The position numbers and the translations under genes are program-made. The notes below the pieces were generated by a model. The model was not told where the DNA came from. It searched no databases and saw nothing but the letters and a program-made list of their open reading frames with translations. From assembly GCA_001873285.1 (NCBI GenBank), contig MNYV01000040.1, forward strand, positions 1 to 12,953: 12,953 nucleotides of DNA. Reading direction: 5' to 3'. Positions 2,221 to 12,953 of this stretch are shown piece after piece (positions within the stretch are counted from its first letter, which is position 1; each line of letters starts with the position of its first letter). The stretch comes from Nitrospirae bacterium CG2_30_53_67 (lineage in GTDB: Bacteria; CG2-30-53-67).

Positions 2221-2745
2221 TTACTCAATGATCCAGAGGGAGCAGCTTTTGGGCATGTGCAGGAGTTTGTTGGTCGTGCTTCCGAAGAGGAACTCCTCCT
2301 GCCTTGAGATCCTGTGTCTTGCAACCACCACGGTGCAGGAACCCAACCGGTGCTGTTCCTCAATAATGACTTCGGCGATGGAGAGGCACTCCCGCGCCAC
2401 AATCCGGACTTCCACCTTTTCCTCAGGGAATCCGGCCTGGATCAGCATGCGTCGGTAGGTATCGAGTATGGCCTTTACATGATCCCGGCGCTGGGCTATC
2501 CATTTTTCCCGTTCTTCATCCGAGCGGAACTCATCCATCTCCGGGATGGAGATGAGATGGAGGATGGTCGCCCGGAATCCGGGAGAGTCGCCGAGAAAGT
2601 CGGCCACATAAAGCCCCGCGCGTTTTGAACTTTCGGATTCGTCCACGGCGATGAGGATATGCCTGTCCTTGACCGGATTCAGGGGATCATTCTTCTCGGT
2701 TTCAGAAGAATAGAGGGTTCCTGTGTTTTGATCAGTGTAGTTCAT
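2221..2745 (-). CDS. Universal stress protein family, degenerate nucleotide-binding motif
   Basis: A 174-residue single-domain UspA-type protein. After about 25 polar N-terminal residues comes the first strand, HILIAVDESESSKRA (29-42), with the conserved Asp35. The C-terminal half ends in the family pattern TVVVARHRISRQEEFLFGS (138-156) followed by a hydrophobic last strand. ATP-binding members have G-2X-G-9X-G-S here. This protein keeps the final GS (155-156) but has Ala142 and Arg145 where the first two glycines should be, so it may not bind ATP. ATG 2745 is preceded by GGAGGTGAAAA, a strong ribosome binding site located inside the 3' end of the kinase-like gene, whose coding region it overlaps by 14 bases. 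The two genes are therefore almost certainly co-transcribed and coupled. Usp proteins are cytoplasmic and respond to stress or starvation; the specific role here is unknown. Confidence 0.88.
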   Translation of the reverse strand: MNYTDQNTGTLYSSETEKNDPLNPVKDRHILIAVDESESSKRAGLYVADFLGDSPGFRATILHLISIPEMDEFRSDEEREKWIAQRRDHVKAILDTYRRMLIQAGFPEEKVEVRIVARECLSIAEVIIEEQHRLGSCTVVVARHRISRQEEFLFGSTTNKLLHMPKSCSLWIIE

Positions 2746-3718
2746 TTTTCACCTCCATCAGATCCGATAACAGCTCAGAAGCGCTTTCGTAGAACACATG
2801 GGCGCCCTGGGAAAAATGGAGCAGGATCAGATTCAGGGAGTCGGGTATATAGGGATAGACCTTCTGCAGATTGGAAACCCGATTGCGAAAGATGACATTC
2901 AGGTCGTTCTGCGTCAAATGCCTTAACGCCGGCGAGTCGTTTTCCACCAGATTCTGTAATGTCAGATACTTCTGCGCGGTAATGTAAGTCAGCAGATTGC
3001 CCAAGCCGAAAAGGTCATAGCCTGCGAAACTCTCCCTGTGAAAATAATTGAAATCGAAGTCGATCCATCGATAATTCCCTGTCTGATTATCCAGAATCAG
3101 ATGATCGCCCCGGATGTCTCCGTGTTTTTCACCCCGGTTATGAAGAAACCCGATGGCTTTCACCATCTCGATATAGACATTCAGCACGGACGGGAAATGA
3201 TGGAAGAAATAATCCTCGTGGCTGGGACTCATTCCGTGGATCTTGTCGGACAGCTTGGCTCCGTGGATATAGTCCAGTATCCGTATGATATTGCCGGCAG
3301 CATCCTTCACGGCAAACCCCTGCATGAAATGGGGATGACCTTCCACGATGCCGAGGATGCGGGCCTCCTTGAGGGGGCTCCGGATGCAGTCGAACGTGAT
3401 CTTCCCCACGCGGATCTTGAACTTTTCATGGAATACCATTTTAATAACCTTGATCTCTCCGCTGAGAAGGTCAACGGCATGCCGGACCCAGTACTTGGGT
3501 TCATCGTTCAGACCGAATCGGCCTTCCTTTTCATTGTTCCGCATCAGATAAGGCCTGTCATTCAGAATCAGCGCATCATCATAATCCACATGAAAAAAAT
3601 CCGAGGTATCCGTGATGATCCTGATCCTTGAAGGGACATGTTCTGCGCCCTGCCATCGGCAGATCATCTCCTTTAATTCGTTCTGGCCGTAGACCCGTTC
3701 ATATACGGATTTTCTCAT
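2732..3718 (-). CDS. Protein-kinase-like protein (HGDIRGDH / DFD type)
   Basis: A 328-residue soluble protein with signs of a kinase fold. VIKMVF (91-96) may hold the strand-3 Lys93. LDYIHG (148-153) looks like the hinge. FLHNRGEKHGDIRGDHL (191-207) is the catalytic loop with Asp201 as likely base, and WIDFDF (218-223) replaces the DFG metal-binding motif by DFD. Arg203 stands where kinases usually have Lys, and His206 where they have Asn, so this is an atypical subfamily whose activity cannot be assumed. I chose ATG 3718 because the frame further upstream (to 3823) runs through an inverted-repeat element; ATG 3742, preceded by AGGCGG, is the alternative. No membrane segment is evident. The overlap with the stress-protein gene suggests a kinase/Usp module, perhaps with the Usp as partner or substrate (inference). 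Confidence 0.72.
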   Translation of the reverse strand: MRKSVYERVYGQNELKEMICRWQGAEHVPSRIRIITDTSDFFHVDYDDALILNDRPYLMRNNEKEGRFGLNDEPKYWVRHAVDLLSGEIKVIKMVFHEKFKIRVGKITFDCIRSPLKEARILGIVEGHPHFMQGFAVKDAAGNIIRILDYIHGAKLSDKIHGMSPSHEDYFFHHFPSVLNVYIEMVKAIGFLHNRGEKHGDIRGDHLILDNQTGNYRWIDFDFNYFHRESFAGYDLFGLGNLLTYITAQKYLTLQNLVENDSPALRHLTQNDLNVIFRNRVSNLQKVYPYIPDSLNLILLHFSQGAHVFYESASELLSDLMEVKNELH

Positions 3719-7606: not shown

Positions 7607-8554
7607 ATGCGGCGGTATCTGAAATTCATGGTGAAATTCATCGGCCTCCTCATCGTCTTCTATATTGCTGCGAGGATCACCATCTGGCTGGCCACCTCCG
7701 GGCATACCGTCACGGCGCCCGATCTTCAGGGCAAGAACGTGGTGGACGCCCTCAAGGAAGTGGGGAAGATCGGCCTCGACCTCCGAGTGGTCCGGGAGGA
7801 GTACGACTCCGCTGTCCCTCGGAACGGGATCCTGGGTCAGGACCCCAAGCCCGGCGTCGAGCTGAAGGTGGACCGAAACATCGAGGTGGTCGTGAGCCTC
7901 GGCGCCCGTGACATTGCCATCCCTGACGTGAGGGGGACTACACTCCGCAAGGCAGAGCTCATCCTGAAACAGAACGGCCTCTCCGCCGGCCTGACCACAC
8001 GCGTCCATGCGCATGAAGAAGAAGGCACCATCCTTTCGCAGAACCCCATGCCCTTGACCGTGGATGTCAGAGAGAACGCTGTGGACCTGCTGGCGAGCGC
8101 CGGGCCCCGTCTCTCCGTTTATAGTATGCCCGACCTCATCGGCATGGATTTCAACCAGGCCGTGGCCCTTCTCGAGTCCGCAAGGCTCCCGATAGGGAAC
8201 GTCCGGTACGAGGTATATACTGAAGGCGTGGTGGAGAACCGGGTCCTCAACCAGTCTCCCGCCTTCGGCTATCCCGTGAGCCAAGAGACCCCCGTCAGCC
8301 TTGTGGTCCATCGGGAATCGTCCGCCCAGACCGGCGTCACCGTCACCCGGATCCCCTTTTCCTACCGTATTCCTTTCGGGCTCATGCCCGTGGATGCCGA
8401 TCTGTTTGTGGAAGACCGGCAGGGGAGGCGGCGTGTCTTTTCGGAACGCAAGCTTCCCGGGAGCCTTATCGAGCTCCCCCTTGAGATTTCAGGAAAGGCC
8501 GTGGTCGAGGTCTATCTCAACGGAAAGATGGTCCAGTCCCTGGATTACCGGTAG
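7607..8554 (+). CDS. Membrane-anchored PASTA-domain protein (three PASTA repeats)
   Basis: A 315-residue protein with a short cytoplasmic N terminus, one membrane segment (about 10-29) and three PASTA domains. These lie at about 36-99 (APDLQGKNVVDALK...), 102-166 (IPDVRGTTLRKAELIL...) and 171-236 (MPDLIGMDFNQAVALL...), each with the (V/I/M)PD-x-x-G start and the Q-x-P turn (QDPKPG, QNPMPL, QSPAFG). A C-terminal beta-rich domain follows (about 247-315). PASTA domains bind muropeptides or mediate periplasmic contacts. They usually sit on Ser/Thr kinases or penicillin-binding proteins, but no such domain is present here. GGGAG lies 4 bases before the ATG. The gene is probably the last of the 4036-8554 transcription unit. 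The adjacent ABC1 kinase makes a split arrangement conceivable (speculative). Confidence 0.92.
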   Translation: MRRYLKFMVKFIGLLIVFYIAARITIWLATSGHTVTAPDLQGKNVVDALKEVGKIGLDLRVVREEYDSAVPRNGILGQDPKPGVELKVDRNIEVVVSLGARDIAIPDVRGTTLRKAELILKQNGLSAGLTTRVHAHEEEGTILSQNPMPLTVDVRENAVDLLASAGPRLSVYSMPDLIGMDFNQAVALLESARLPIGNVRYEVYTEGVVENRVLNQSPAFGYPVSQETPVSLVVHRESSAQTGVTVTRIPFSYRIPFGLMPVDADLFVEDRQGRRRVFSERKLPGSLIELPLEISGKAVVEVYLNGKMVQSLDYR

Positions 8555-8638: not shown

Positions 8639-8866
8639 ATGAAAACCGCAAAACTCTTTCAAAACGGCCGGAGTCAGGCCGTCCGTCTGCCCAAGGAGTT
8701 CAGATTTGAAGACGACCACGTGTTCGTCAAAAAGTCCGGAAACGCCGTTGTGTTGATCCCGGCAAAGAACTCATGGGATTCTCTATTCAAAAGCCTCGGC
8801 AAGTTTTCCGATGAATTCATGGCTGAACGCAAACAGCCGGGCACACAGGTTCGGGAGGAGTTCTGA
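8639..8866 (+). CDS. vapB: VapB/VagC-type antitoxin (AbrB/SpoVT fold)
   Basis: A 75-residue protein that opens with the characteristic swapped-hairpin DNA-binding segment, KLFQNGRSQAVRLPKEFRF (5-23), followed by VFVKKSGNAVVLIPAK. The C-terminal part (about 45-75, SWDSLFKSLGKF...) is the usual toxin-neutralising tail. The length and sequence style match the VagC/VapB group. GGGAGGG lies upstream of ATG 8639, and a perfect palindrome lies just before that. The TGA overlaps the toxin ATG by one base (TGATG), so the two are translationally coupled. It should bind VapC directly and, with it, the operator. Confidence 0.93.
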   Translation: MKTAKLFQNGRSQAVRLPKEFRFEDDHVFVKKSGNAVVLIPAKNSWDSLFKSLGKFSDEFMAERKQPGTQVREEF

Positions 8867-9267
8867 TGAAGTTCATGCTCGATACAAATACGTGCATTTA
8901 CCTCATCAAACAGAAACCCCCAAAAGTCCTGAAGCATTTTAAATCGCATTCCATAGGAGACATCGGTATCTCCGTCATAACACTCGCTGAACTCCAGTAT
9001 GGTGCGGCAAAAAGTCAGCACGTCGAGAAAAACCGGGCAGCTCTGGAAGAATTTCTTCTTCCTCTTGAAGTTGCGGATTTTGATGAGAAAGCAGCGCAAG
9101 CATACGGCACGGTCAGAGCAGCGCTCGAAAAAGCCGGAACTCCGATTGGATCACTGGATACGCAGATCGGAGCGCACGCCCTGAGCCTCGGCATAACGCT
9201 CGTCACGAACAACACCAGGGAGTTCAGACGGATTAAAAGTTTGAAGGTCGTGGATTGGACCGTGTGA
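8866..9267 (+). CDS. vapC: VapC-type PIN-domain toxin ribonuclease
   Basis: A 133-residue PIN-domain protein. The acidic active-site residues are visible: Asp6 in FMLDTNTCIYL, Glu42 in LAELQYG and Asp98 in GSLDTQIGAHAL, followed by VTNNTREFRRI (113-123), which in the family supplies the last polar site residues. It resembles the MvpA/VapC group, members of which cleave initiator tRNA; the actual target is not shown by the sequence. The start is preceded by GGGAGGAG inside vapB and overlaps the vapB stop by one base. The set of residues looks complete, so the toxin is probably functional and held in check by VapB. Confidence 0.94.
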   Translation: MKFMLDTNTCIYLIKQKPPKVLKHFKSHSIGDIGISVITLAELQYGAAKSQHVEKNRAALEEFLLPLEVADFDEKAAQAYGTVRAALEKAGTPIGSLDTQIGAHALSLGITLVTNNTREFRRIKSLKVVDWTV

Positions 9268-9617: not shown

Positions 9618-9681
9618 AGTCCAACACGTTTTATCCGAAATGCCTCTCGGCGCTACGGATAAAACGCCATACGTTATGTGC
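9618..9681 (+). other. Possible degenerate integron attC site
   Basis: GTCCAAC (9619-9625) fits the RYYYAAC left core. It is followed by a perfect 11-bp stem, CGTTTTATCCG / CGGATAAAACG, with an 18-base loop, and by GTTATGTGC (9673-9681). That right core differs at two positions from the GTTAGCTGC of the next attC, but it pairs poorly with its own left core and deviates from GTTRRRY. If real, it marks the start of the decayed cassette that ends at 10230. Confidence 0.38.
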
Positions 9682-9744
9682 ACGCGGAGGACGGAGGCGG
9701 CAGTCCTATGTCCCATGTCATAACGATCCTGTACACGGCCGGGT

Positions 9745-9782
9745 GGCAATAAATAGGGGCAAGGCAATGGCAATAAATAGGG
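9745..9782. repeat. 14-bp direct repeat at the edge of the MITE
   Basis: GGCAATAAATAGGG occurs at 9745-9758 and again at 9769-9782, a 24-base period. The second copy runs into the left end of the 116-bp element. It may be a partial duplication of the element end or a footprint of an earlier insertion. Confidence 0.55.
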
Positions 9783-9890
9783 ACAGCGCCCATTTATTTT
9801 TCTATCTTTAGGTTTCATATTGGAAGAATTTATGCAGAATGAATGTCTCATTACAAGTGCCCTAACAATAAATGGGTGCTGTCCCTATTT
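9775..9890. mobile_element. 116-bp MITE-like element, complete copy
   Basis: The termini AAATAGGGACAGC... (9775-9797) and ...GCTGTCCCTATTT (9868-9890) are 23-bp inverted repeats with one mismatch (position 9877). The interior is about 70 bp, AT-rich and non-coding. A second copy lies in opposite orientation at 12857-12953 and is identical over the shared 97 bases except at 9877. Ends with GGGACAGC are familiar beside REP-associated or IS200-like transposase genes (from memory). No transposase is present here. Confidence 0.75.
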
Positions 9891-9897
9891 TTAGTGA

Positions 9898-10146
9898 AAG
9901 GATCACCGCCATGATGGCCCTGGCCTCAAGCGCGGTGACCTTTTCGAGATCGTCCTGATTCAGACGAAAGGAGGTTCTGCCCCGCGACCCACGCTGGATG
10001 ACCTTGCCCGCTTAAAAGGGGTCGCCAAACATCACAAGGCAAAGCATGTCATTCTGGCGGAGTGGCGGCGTGCAGAGAAACTCGAACTGTTCAAGCTCAG
10101 CGGAACGCGCTGGCAATCGGTTTCACCGGATGAAGTCTTTGGTTGA
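9898..10146 (+). pseudogene. 5'-truncated remnant of a hypothetical gene
   Basis: The frame is open from 9898 (after a TGA at 9895-9897) to a TGA at 10144-10146 and has no plausible start codon. Its content looks like genuine protein: a strand-like DLFEIVLIQTKGGSAPRPT, a helix LDDLARLKGVAKHHKAKHV, then ILAEWRRAEKLELFKL and a final SVSPDEVFG. I recall conserved hypothetical proteins with this kind of C terminus but cannot name a family or function. The break lies within 10 bases of the 116-bp MITE, and I find no N-terminal half upstream of the MITE, so insertion together with deletion probably destroyed the gene. It ends 10 bases before an attC site, as a cassette gene would. Confidence 0.6.
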
Positions 10147-10155
10147 TGCCGGAAG

Positions 10156-10238
10156 GCAGCTAACAAACCGTTGCACCCGATCCTCGGGAGCGGCGCTTCG
10201 CGCCGTCCCTCGGCCGGGTGAACGGTGACGTTAGCTGC
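10156..10238 (+). other. Integron attC recombination site
   Basis: The outer arms GCAGCTAAC (10156-10164) and GTTAGCTGC (10230-10238) are perfectly complementary. The inner arms CCGTTGCACCC (10168-10178) and GGGTGAACGG (10216-10225) pair except for one extra base, G10173, on the left arm. That single unpaired base is the hallmark that sets strand choice in attC sites. Short unpaired spacers (AAA and TGAC) separate the arm pairs. The middle contains a GC hairpin, CGGCGC/GCGCCG. The expected crossover is between G10230 and T10231. The third base of the R box deviates from the GTTRRRY consensus. Confidence 0.83.
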
Positions 10239-10260
10239 TCAAAAAAAAGGAGGTAATAGA

Positions 10261-11346
10261 ATGAACAGTCATCGTTGTTGCACAAGGCAATTGCTGGTGT
10301 TGCTATTGATTATCAGCTCCATAGTTACGACGTTTGCATTGGCGGCTGATGATAGCGAAAAAGCAGGGGTATTGCAGTTTACGGCTCATCCAGACGGCAC
10401 TTTTAGCGTTATATCCCAGTCAGCCCCATTAGAGATGCTGCTATCAAGAATTCGTGAGACGACAAATGTTGATATTTATATTGATGGCGCATCAAAGAAG
10501 CGACCCGTCTCGATTAATGTGAAGAATATTTCGTTAATTCAGTTGTTGAGGCGTATTGCTGGAGCAAATTACGCAATGGTTTACGATGGGCTTACCGTAT
10601 CTGCGTTGCATGTATTACCAAAAGGCAAAACGCAGTCTGCCAATGGCGACATTGCCATTTCCGAGTTCTCTGGACAAGTAAAAATTACCAATCAGCGCGC
10701 CAGGATGTTTTTCACGCCGGCTAACAAATCCAAGAGCGCAATTGATAGCTACATCAATAAACGACACGAAGCACTATCAAAACTATCAGAAGAAAACCCT
10801 AACAAAGAGCTTCATGCGCAAATATCGTTCAAAGGATATTTGTCTGCTGATCAGGTTATTGCGCTTGTGAACGAAAACCAATTGGATCCAGTTACTCTTA
10901 ACATTGGATGGAAAGAGAACGGTGGCGGGTATGATTTAAAACAGGGGGAAGCGATTGAATTGGCTATCAAGTCAGCAGCGGCACATCACGAGCGATTCAT
11001 CGCAGAGCTACAGGAAGACGCAAATATGCAAGTTACCAATTTGCGCCAACAAGGCATAAGTGATGTACAAATGCAGTCAGAGCTGGCATTCCAACAAAAT
11101 GCAAATGACATGAACTCGGTTTTCCATAGCAAAGGAGTCCCGTTTTATGGCGTGCGTGTAGCCGCAACTGCAAAGCAATTACAAGCACTTACAAGCAATG
11201 ATAGGAAAATTAGGCTTGTTGACCCGTTATGGGGTGGCTCAGTGGAAGATGAAATTGCCAACGTATACCCAACGACAAAGATTGCAATTCCGCTTGTCCC
11301 AGATAATGAAACTTTCATTCCTGAAATCACGGAGGATAGAAAATGA
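10261..11346 (+). CDS. Exported protein with STN-like segment, first gene of the integron cassette
   Basis: A 361-residue protein starting at ATG 10261, 6 bases after a strong AAGGAGG. The frame extends upstream to 10225 without a better start. A signal peptide is evident (CCTRQLLVLLLIISSIVTTFALA, cleavage near residues 28-29). Residues about 47-118 (FSVISQSAPLEMLLSRIRE ... ISLIQLLRRIAGANYAMVYD) have the strand-helix pattern of STN/secretin N-terminal domains, which act in outer-membrane secretin or TonB systems. There is no secretin channel or TonB barrel. The rest, including a helical stretch rich in Gln and Ala (about 230-285), matches nothing I know. The base composition is clearly more AT-rich than the upstream operons. 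Its TGA overlaps the next ATG (ATGA), so the two products probably act together in the envelope. Confidence 0.8.
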   Translation: MNSHRCCTRQLLVLLLIISSIVTTFALAADDSEKAGVLQFTAHPDGTFSVISQSAPLEMLLSRIRETTNVDIYIDGASKKRPVSINVKNISLIQLLRRIAGANYAMVYDGLTVSALHVLPKGKTQSANGDIAISEFSGQVKITNQRARMFFTPANKSKSAIDSYINKRHEALSKLSEENPNKELHAQISFKGYLSADQVIALVNENQLDPVTLNIGWKENGGGYDLKQGEAIELAIKSAAAHHERFIAELQEDANMQVTNLRQQGISDVQMQSELAFQQNANDMNSVFHSKGVPFYGVRVAATAKQLQALTSNDRKIRLVDPLWGGSVEDEIANVYPTTKIAIPLVPDNETFIPEITEDRK

Positions 11347-11972
11347 AAAAGCTATTTTTTCTGTTTGTCGTGTTTTGTATGGCAGTTCCTGCATTTGCAG
11401 GCGAACCGTGGGCGCCTGTATCTGGATATAGCAGCGTCAATCAATCAAAAACCTACAATCGGTTTATATTCTCATCGCTCAGTGGACAGTATGGTGATGA
11501 CGAGACTTATGAACATGAGACCCAAGTCTACAATAATGCTTTTGCTGATTATGATGGTTATTGGTCAAGCAATCTACCAGCCAAGTATTATGATACGCCG
11601 TTTTCGGATGACATAGACACTTTTACTATTGGCTCCGCAAGAGCAGCCGATCTGCAAGATGGTGTGCAGTACTATACCTATATGGCGTTGACCAAAGGGA
11701 ACAATTCTGACTGCCAAGGCTGTTGCTCATCACATGGTGGCGTGGTTTGCAGTAATGGGATTACGCAATGTGCCGACGGCACACCGCTTTCCTCAACGTG
11801 TGTAGCCAAGGGATGCAACCAATGTTTAAACGAAGCAACTGTGCGTATCAAGGGGCAGCGAGGGCACAGCGTTATTCCCGGATGCACTTCAACGTGGTGC
11901 ATATTCGCTGATGCGACAACCGGAACAATGTGCCTTTTGAATGCCCCGCAGTATAAAAGCTGGACATATTGA
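11343..11972 (+). CDS. Small exported cysteine-rich protein, second gene of the integron cassette
   Basis: A 209-residue protein with a clean signal peptide (MKKLFFLFVVFCMAVPAFA, cleavage after residue 19). The mature part starts with a region rich in Tyr, Ser and Asp (about 28-110). A cysteine-rich segment of 11 Cys follows (124-197), including CQGCCSSHGGVVC (124-136) and CADGTPLSSTCVAKGCNQC (143-161). A C-C-S-x-HGG-x-C ... C-x-DGT-x-S-x-x-C pattern occurs in various small periplasmic bacterial proteins, without a function I can name. The cysteines suggest disulfide bonding or metal binding outside the cytoplasm. The start overlaps the previous stop as ATGA, with GGAGG a few bases upstream. 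An attC site begins 15 bases after the stop, the normal place for the end of a cassette. Confidence 0.8.
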   Translation: MKKLFFLFVVFCMAVPAFAGEPWAPVSGYSSVNQSKTYNRFIFSSLSGQYGDDETYEHETQVYNNAFADYDGYWSSNLPAKYYDTPFSDDIDTFTIGSARAADLQDGVQYYTYMALTKGNNSDCQGCCSSHGGVVCSNGITQCADGTPLSSTCVAKGCNQCLNEATVRIKGQRGHSVIPGCTSTWCIFADATTGTMCLLNAPQYKSWTY

Positions 11973-11987
11973 TGGTACTGCATATTT

Positions 11988-12071
11988 GCAGCTAACAACG
12001 CCATCAACTCGGGCGTGCAAAAGCGCCGCTTCTCTCTGCTTTTGCACGCCGGTTATGGCGAGCGTTGGAGC
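11988..12071 (+). other. Integron attC recombination site
   Basis: The left core is GCAGCTAAC (11988-11996), identical to that of the 10156 site, and the right core is GTTGGAG (12064-12070). The inner arms CGCCAT(C)AAC (11999-12008) and GTTATGGCG (12052-12060) pair except for the extra C12005 on the left arm. The apex is a perfect 13-bp stem, GGCGTGCAAAAGC (12012-12024) / GCTTTTGCACGCC (12038-12050). The left core is exactly complementary to GTTAGCTGC formed at the start of this cassette (10230-10238), as expected if the cassette was once a circle. The crossover would be after G12064. Confidence 0.83.
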
Positions 12072-12257: not shown

Positions 12258-12626
12258 ATGAAAATGAAATGTCCGATGCAAATTATCATGCCGGTTTTTG
12301 TCGTCTCTTTGTCTCTTGCCTGTGCCTCAACACGAACACTTGAGCAGAACTTTTCGTCCATACAAACCGGTATGTCCAGACAGAACATTAAAAGCATCAT
12401 GGGGAAGCCGGAAAGGGCCGATGCAGGCGTGGTTCCTCAATCGCCATTCTTCGGACCGCAGGAAGCTTTGCTAAGTGTGCTGAAGCCAGGCGCCTCCTTT
12501 GAGGAATGGCAATATATAGATGAGGGAAACATATATCTTATCTGGTTTGGCAGCATCAGCGGCGAGCCTCAGGAGAACTGGAGAGTTGTAACAAAATTCG
12601 GATACCCCAAAGGCGCCGTATTTTAA
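12258..12626 (+). CDS. Small BamE/SmpA-like putative lipoprotein
   Basis: About 122 residues from ATG 12258 (TTG 12249 and ATG 12264 are alternatives). The N terminus is a hydrophobic signal ending VVSLSLAC; Cys22 would be lipidated, though the lipobox is relaxed (Ser at -3). The mature part has the SmpA/OmlA/BamE-like pattern: LEQNFSSIQTGMSRQNIKSI followed by MGKPERAD, then EEWQYIDEGNIYLIWFG and a final WRVVTKFGYPKG. Such proteins sit on the outer membrane and often bind envelope partners. No clear Shine-Dalgarno sequence precedes ATG 12258. A 12-codon frame beginning at 12223 after AAGGTGA ends in TGA overlapping this ATG, which could couple translation. It lies downstream of an attC, but no attC follows within the window. 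Confidence 0.7.
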   Translation: MKMKCPMQIIMPVFVVSLSLACASTRTLEQNFSSIQTGMSRQNIKSIMGKPERADAGVVPQSPFFGPQEALLSVLKPGASFEEWQYIDEGNIYLIWFGSISGEPQENWRVVTKFGYPKGAVF

Positions 12627-12856: not shown

Positions 12857-12953
12857 AAATAGGGACAGCGCCCATTTATTGTTAGGGCACTTGTAATGAG
12901 ACATTCATTCTGCATAAATTCTTCCAATATGAAACCTAAAGATAGAAAAATAA
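12857..12953. mobile_element. Second copy of the 116-bp MITE-like element, inverted, cut by the right edge
   Basis: The 97 bases present are the reverse complement of 9794-9890 with one difference (at 9877). The terminal repeat AAATAGGGACAGCGCCC is intact here; the other 19 bases would lie beyond the window. Near-identity of the copies indicates recent spread or homogenisation. Confidence 0.75.

Follow-up and report, generated by a model that had tools for sequence, protein, structure and literature searches.

The window analysed here, the whole 12,953-nucleotide stretch of contig MNYV01000040.1 (C40 below), carries a small CALIN, an intact two-gene cassette preceded by another attC site and a gene remnant, and we put the probability of this reading at about 0.93. 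A CALIN is a cluster of attC sites lacking an integron-integrase, a class defined with IntegronFinder. Two attCs, 1.8 kb apart, lie on C40 without any intI, the view ending at position 12953, and the 5' side of the array has neither intI nor attI. A first, sequence-only reading of this DNA had proposed a cassette array with no integrase in view, and for two of its three claimed sites the analysis supports that proposal (Table 1).

Table 1. Features of the window (C40) and of other contigs of the genome and its sister.
Feature	Location	Strand	Basis or remark
PASTA-domain gene, common to five relatives	7607-8554	+	chromosomal flank, 5' side of array
MazE/PIN-domain toxin-antitoxin pair	8639-9267	+	immediately ahead of array
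Hairpin proposed as third attC	9619-9679	+	rejected: 12.4 bits, no extrahelical base
Short inverted-repeat element, 116 bp	9775-9890		arms 97 nt, 99% complementary
3' remnant of preceding cassette's gene, start lost	9898-10146	+	open frame, translation
attC site 1	10158-10236	+	R1 48.4 bits, E 7.5e-9; fold z -6.4
Complete gene cassette, 1834 bp, between G^TT cut points	10231-12064	+	9/9 core match
Cassette gene 1, 361 aa, probable signal peptide	10261-11346	+	translation, profile searches
Cassette gene 2, 209 aa, probably secreted, cysteine-rich	11343-11972	+	translation, profile searches
attC site 2	11990-12070	+	R1 37.3 bits, E 2.3e-6; fold z -4.7
BamE/OsmE-like gene	12258-12626	+	
IntI gene, intact	C20 2238-3212	-	TIGR02249 profile match
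EcoRV-type restriction-modification cassette beside IntI	C20 101-2126	-	
Decayed integron	C146 4752-5633	-	IntI C-terminus, attI-like stretch, cassette, attC
Single attC behind C5 methyltransferase with Vsr and HNH endonucleases	C20:22937		
Single attC behind ParE-type toxin gene	C58:1027		
Single attC behind type II methyltransferase	C3:11396		
Single attCs behind restriction-modification or toxin-antitoxin genes, this genome and sister	L102 3038-3097; L104 1027-1086; L106 4397-4462; L171 3008-3069		

An attC works as a hairpin of the bottom strand, which IntI reads via extrahelical bases and cuts beside the GTT of the right core. The two hairpins at 10158-10236 and 11990-12070 are genuine attC sites. 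Both sites, in their full extent of 10156-10238 and 11988-12071, open with the left core GCAGCTAAC, both have an inner and an outer stem with short unpaired spacers between them, seen in the fold and in the alignment to our covariance model R1, and each has one extrahelical base on the left arm of the inner stem, G10173 and C12005; the first reading had described all of this correctly. Site 1 consists of 1L AGCTAAC, 2L CCGTT-G-CACCCG, a variable hairpin, 2R CGGGTGAACGG and 1R GTTAGCT, and its perfect outer pairing extends as far as 10156 and 10238. Site 2 has 1L AGCTAAC and 1R GTTGGAG, and its outer stem is imperfect, the 1R being supplied in situ by the neighbour. Compared to RYYYAAC/GTTRRRY, every outer core of the two sites departs once, which is inside the spread of the control sites. 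The folding energies of the single-stranded bottom strands are -33.7 (site 1) and -25.3 kcal/mol (site 2), and 0 of 200 dinucleotide shuffles were equally stable.

A search of Rfam gave no attC match, and R1 was therefore built as an independent model, with the window and its own genome excluded. With the genome's own IntI, on contig C20, as query, 80 related intI loci were collected from named genomes, and a rule-based scan downstream of the intI genes supplied the hairpins for an alignment of 29 attCs, in which 90% of the cells are paired and the covariation is 0.457 as compared to 0.136 in shuffles. In the window R1 made only two significant matches, so the covariance scoring suggested for the two main sites accepts both; their E-values were computed over 45.6 kb and rest on a shortened calibration. 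Over the 80 intI loci there were 135 matches, of which 133 share the strand of intI and 129 lie downstream of it (a hand count from tables); some of these sites had trained the model, so that only the bias among the others is informative. At E 0.001 the model was silent in 23 of the 31 genomes searched. The attC of a class 1 integron on an E. coli plasmid scored 33.3 bits, below both window sites, and the one expected behind the dfrA25 cassette of another plasmid was missed, which shows that the sensitivity of R1 is uneven across attCs.

The weaker third site of the sequence-only reading, at 9618-9681, did not hold up. With the speed filters off its E-value is 0.08 within 4.4 kb, which is chance level at genome scale, and its fold is a simple 12-bp hairpin, in which the spacers are lopsided and a 1L/1R stem is missing. 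It thus fails on model significance, extrahelical base and outer stem alike.

Integron cassettes bear their own right core at the left end, and a right core is therefore expected to be complementary to the left core of the attC that follows. The core at the left boundary of the cassette, GTTAGCTGC (10230-10238), is the exact reverse complement of GCAGCTAAC at 11988-11996, matching in nine of nine positions. This fits the expectation for an excisable cassette, and sets its bounds at 10231 and 12064. Ten control arrays gave 60 pairs of adjacent attCs, and 43 of these match 7/7, where 5.9 would be expected for shuffled pairs and the maximum in 1000 shuffles was 14. Both hairpins are strong and GC-rich, as would also be the case if they were ordinary transcription terminators or REP-like elements resembling attC. 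We find this hardly credible, given the canonical extra base, cores near the consensus, the R1 scores and the silence of R1 in most genomes searched, together with a core match across 1.8 kb and a yield of about ten such matches in 2.36 Mb.

The left core of the cassette fits its own 1L, and two plus-strand genes precede the attC. They overlap by 4 bp, and both starts are signal-peptide-like. Neither protein has a match above cut-off in Pfam, NCBIfam, PHROG or PADLOC, or any match in plasmids and viral contigs, and gene 1 has none among PDB sequences. An N-terminal stretch of gene 1 is weakly DotD-like (E 0.03, below cut-off), and its only relative among 386 genomes is a weak match, at 29% identity, in the sister genome. 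Single-sequence structure models of the two proteins, with mean pLDDT of 39 and 40, were too poor for use. The first reading also had all genes pointing toward an attC of their own. This is true for the one complete cassette, but for the MazE/PIN pair and the BamE/OsmE-like gene, also on the plus strand, no attC is in view.

The preceding cassette is broken. Its remnant frame ends 12 bp ahead of site 1, and the start of the gene is replaced by the inverted-repeat element, which cuts the cassette at 9890; no left core for it was found within 4.5 kb upstream. The array therefore offers only two attCs, and an upstream cassette without a recognisable start. A second copy of the element, inverted, lies at 12857-12953, the very end of the contig. 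The terminal motif of the element, AAATAGGGACAGCGCCCATTT, has 19 exact copies in the genome, often close to contig ends.

To the left, the array is followed by the MazE/PIN pair and then by genes common to the sister genome. The DNA similarity to all five relatives ends by about 8570 (8556 in the sister), and the C40 flank is 86% identical to the sister genome over 1459 bp. The 5' side of the array thus runs into chromosomal genes of the relatives, which makes it a CALIN and not merely a split integron. Neither intI nor an IntI remnant was found on C40 by profile search or by tblastn at E<=1. On the right the array ends with the contig, and further cassettes or another element could follow; mapping the next genes of the sister genome onto this genome did not yield the right-hand flank. 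The assembly is a draft of 183 contigs, of which single ones might conceivably be misbinned, though C40 has a flank that matches the sister.

An integrase was sought on other contigs, as the first reading had suggested, and the genome has one full-length integron integrase, on C20 at 2238-3182 (TIGR02249, 485.7 bits, cut-off 265). The gene is followed by an attI-like stretch, AAACTATATATACAATAGTTATGT, and the restriction-modification cassette, all in one direction, so that intI is transcribed toward attI and array. The cassette encodes an EcoRV-type endonuclease (393 bits) and a Dam-family methyltransferase, and is closed by an attC like those of the window, which scores 52.7 bits and has cores that match 12/12. 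This integron is also present in the sister genome, with a shared flank, an 84% identical IntI and a different first cassette, the cores matching 13/13. Relatives of this IntI at 61-82% identity are found in MAGs that carry the labels of many different phyla, and almost all of them have same-strand cassettes downstream of intI. A decayed integron on C146 retains 27 C-terminal residues of IntI, an attI-like stretch AAACCATATAATCAATAGTTGGGC similar to that of C20, and one lipoprotein-like cassette with its attC.

Draft genomes often contain split integrons (PMC9024848), and one short repeat has copies at the ends of both C20 and C40, so the window could be thought of as the distal part of the C20 integron, separated by an assembly break at the repeat. 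This is very improbable. By the polarity of the array, attI and intI would have to lie left of 10158, where there are chromosomal genes and neither intI nor a remnant of it. The free end of C40 is the array-distal one and that of C20 the intI-distal one, which rules out a head-to-tail joining of the two, and polarity excludes a junction through the common repeat. A junction of C40 with C58 was also rejected: the core there, ATCCAAC, does not fit after the 1R GTTGGAG, and no left core was found.

The window is thus best taken as a CALIN. A cassette between two attCs would be excisable as a circle and could be reinserted at attI or at another attC, and the full-length IntI of C20 could act on the window cassette in trans. 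The cassette may well have recombined in this way, and the C20 enzyme is the presumed integrase acting on the array. The array would have become separated either by off-target insertion in trans or by loss of a former intI, both of which have been proposed as routes to CALINs (PMC8618304).

For the first route, insertion by the C20 IntI at an attG-like secondary site near the PASTA gene, the other attCs of the genome are relevant. R1 finds at least ten in 2.36 Mb, the two of the window and eight others; the count is a lower bound, since the genome-wide search scored 150 candidates out of 1354 and the 37-bit site of the window escaped it. The first reading had considered that the same hairpins might occur genome-wide outside any array. 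Matches elsewhere do exist, but those inspected lie mostly behind cassette-like genes and therefore look like attCs, not like generic hairpins. Several are single attCs behind restriction-modification or toxin genes, and in the sister genome one lies 22 bp behind a putative N6 methyltransferase (identified by eye). A second CALIN-like pair of attCs, at C125 4707-5537, surrounds genes without database matches. On C3, a 2431-bp attC-bearing insert is absent from the sister genome, which together with the isolated attCs speaks for off-target insertion. Against it, the insert ends about 100 bp past the attC, unlike a clean cassette insertion, and no empty site can be defined at the window. For the single attCs behind defence genes no matching left core was found, and with the overshoot of the C3 insert this makes clean off-target insertion only putative. 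We consider the route possible for the window, at somewhat less than even odds.

It is also conceivable, again short of an even chance, that the window once had its own intI beside the array, and that this was deleted, perhaps at the repeat element. The C146 locus shows how an integron of this genome has decayed to an attI-like sequence, one cassette and the end of IntI, and the repeat element does cut the upstream cassette at 9890; between 8556 and 10158, however, neither an intI remnant nor an attI-like stretch was found. For the window, the evidence favours neither of the two routes, off-target insertion or loss of intI, over the other.

Only the scattered defence genes with an attC behind them are somewhat out of the ordinary. 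One might speculate, and we regard it as rather doubtful, that in this lineage the resident IntI scatters single defence cassettes, of type II restriction-modification and toxin-antitoxin genes, over the chromosome, and that the attC-tailed loci and the window CALIN are a reservoir that it could recall in trans. Since two sister genomes have single attCs behind restriction-modification and toxin-antitoxin genes, they are well suited to studying how cassettes leave arrays and settle elsewhere in chromosomes. The window adds a CALIN that was tested independently, and for which an integrase likely to act in trans is identified, from a little-studied lineage with a reversed-integrase integron.

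Like other CALINs, the window has two tandem attCs in the same orientation and no adjoining intI, with an IntI elsewhere in the genome, but it is minimal, with two sites, an upstream cassette broken by a repeat and one end lost at the contig break. In the Treponema integron the intI is transcribed toward attI and the cassettes, a 'reversed integrase' (PMC3607928). The C20 locus resembles this Treponema denticola type of sedentary chromosomal integron, since its intI runs toward an attI-like core and cassettes; the likeness belongs to C20 and not to the window, and the closest named matches of the C20 IntI are the many-phyla MAGs, at no more than 82% identity. With the class 1 integrons of E. 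coli plasmids the window shares the attC architecture, and R1 recognises a class 1 attC, but the window has no resistance cassettes and no qacE/sul1 end, and IntI1 is 51% identical to the C20 IntI, with the opposite orientation of intI. The arrangement in the window is of a known kind: it is a small CALIN, and the genome also has a sedentary integron of its own.
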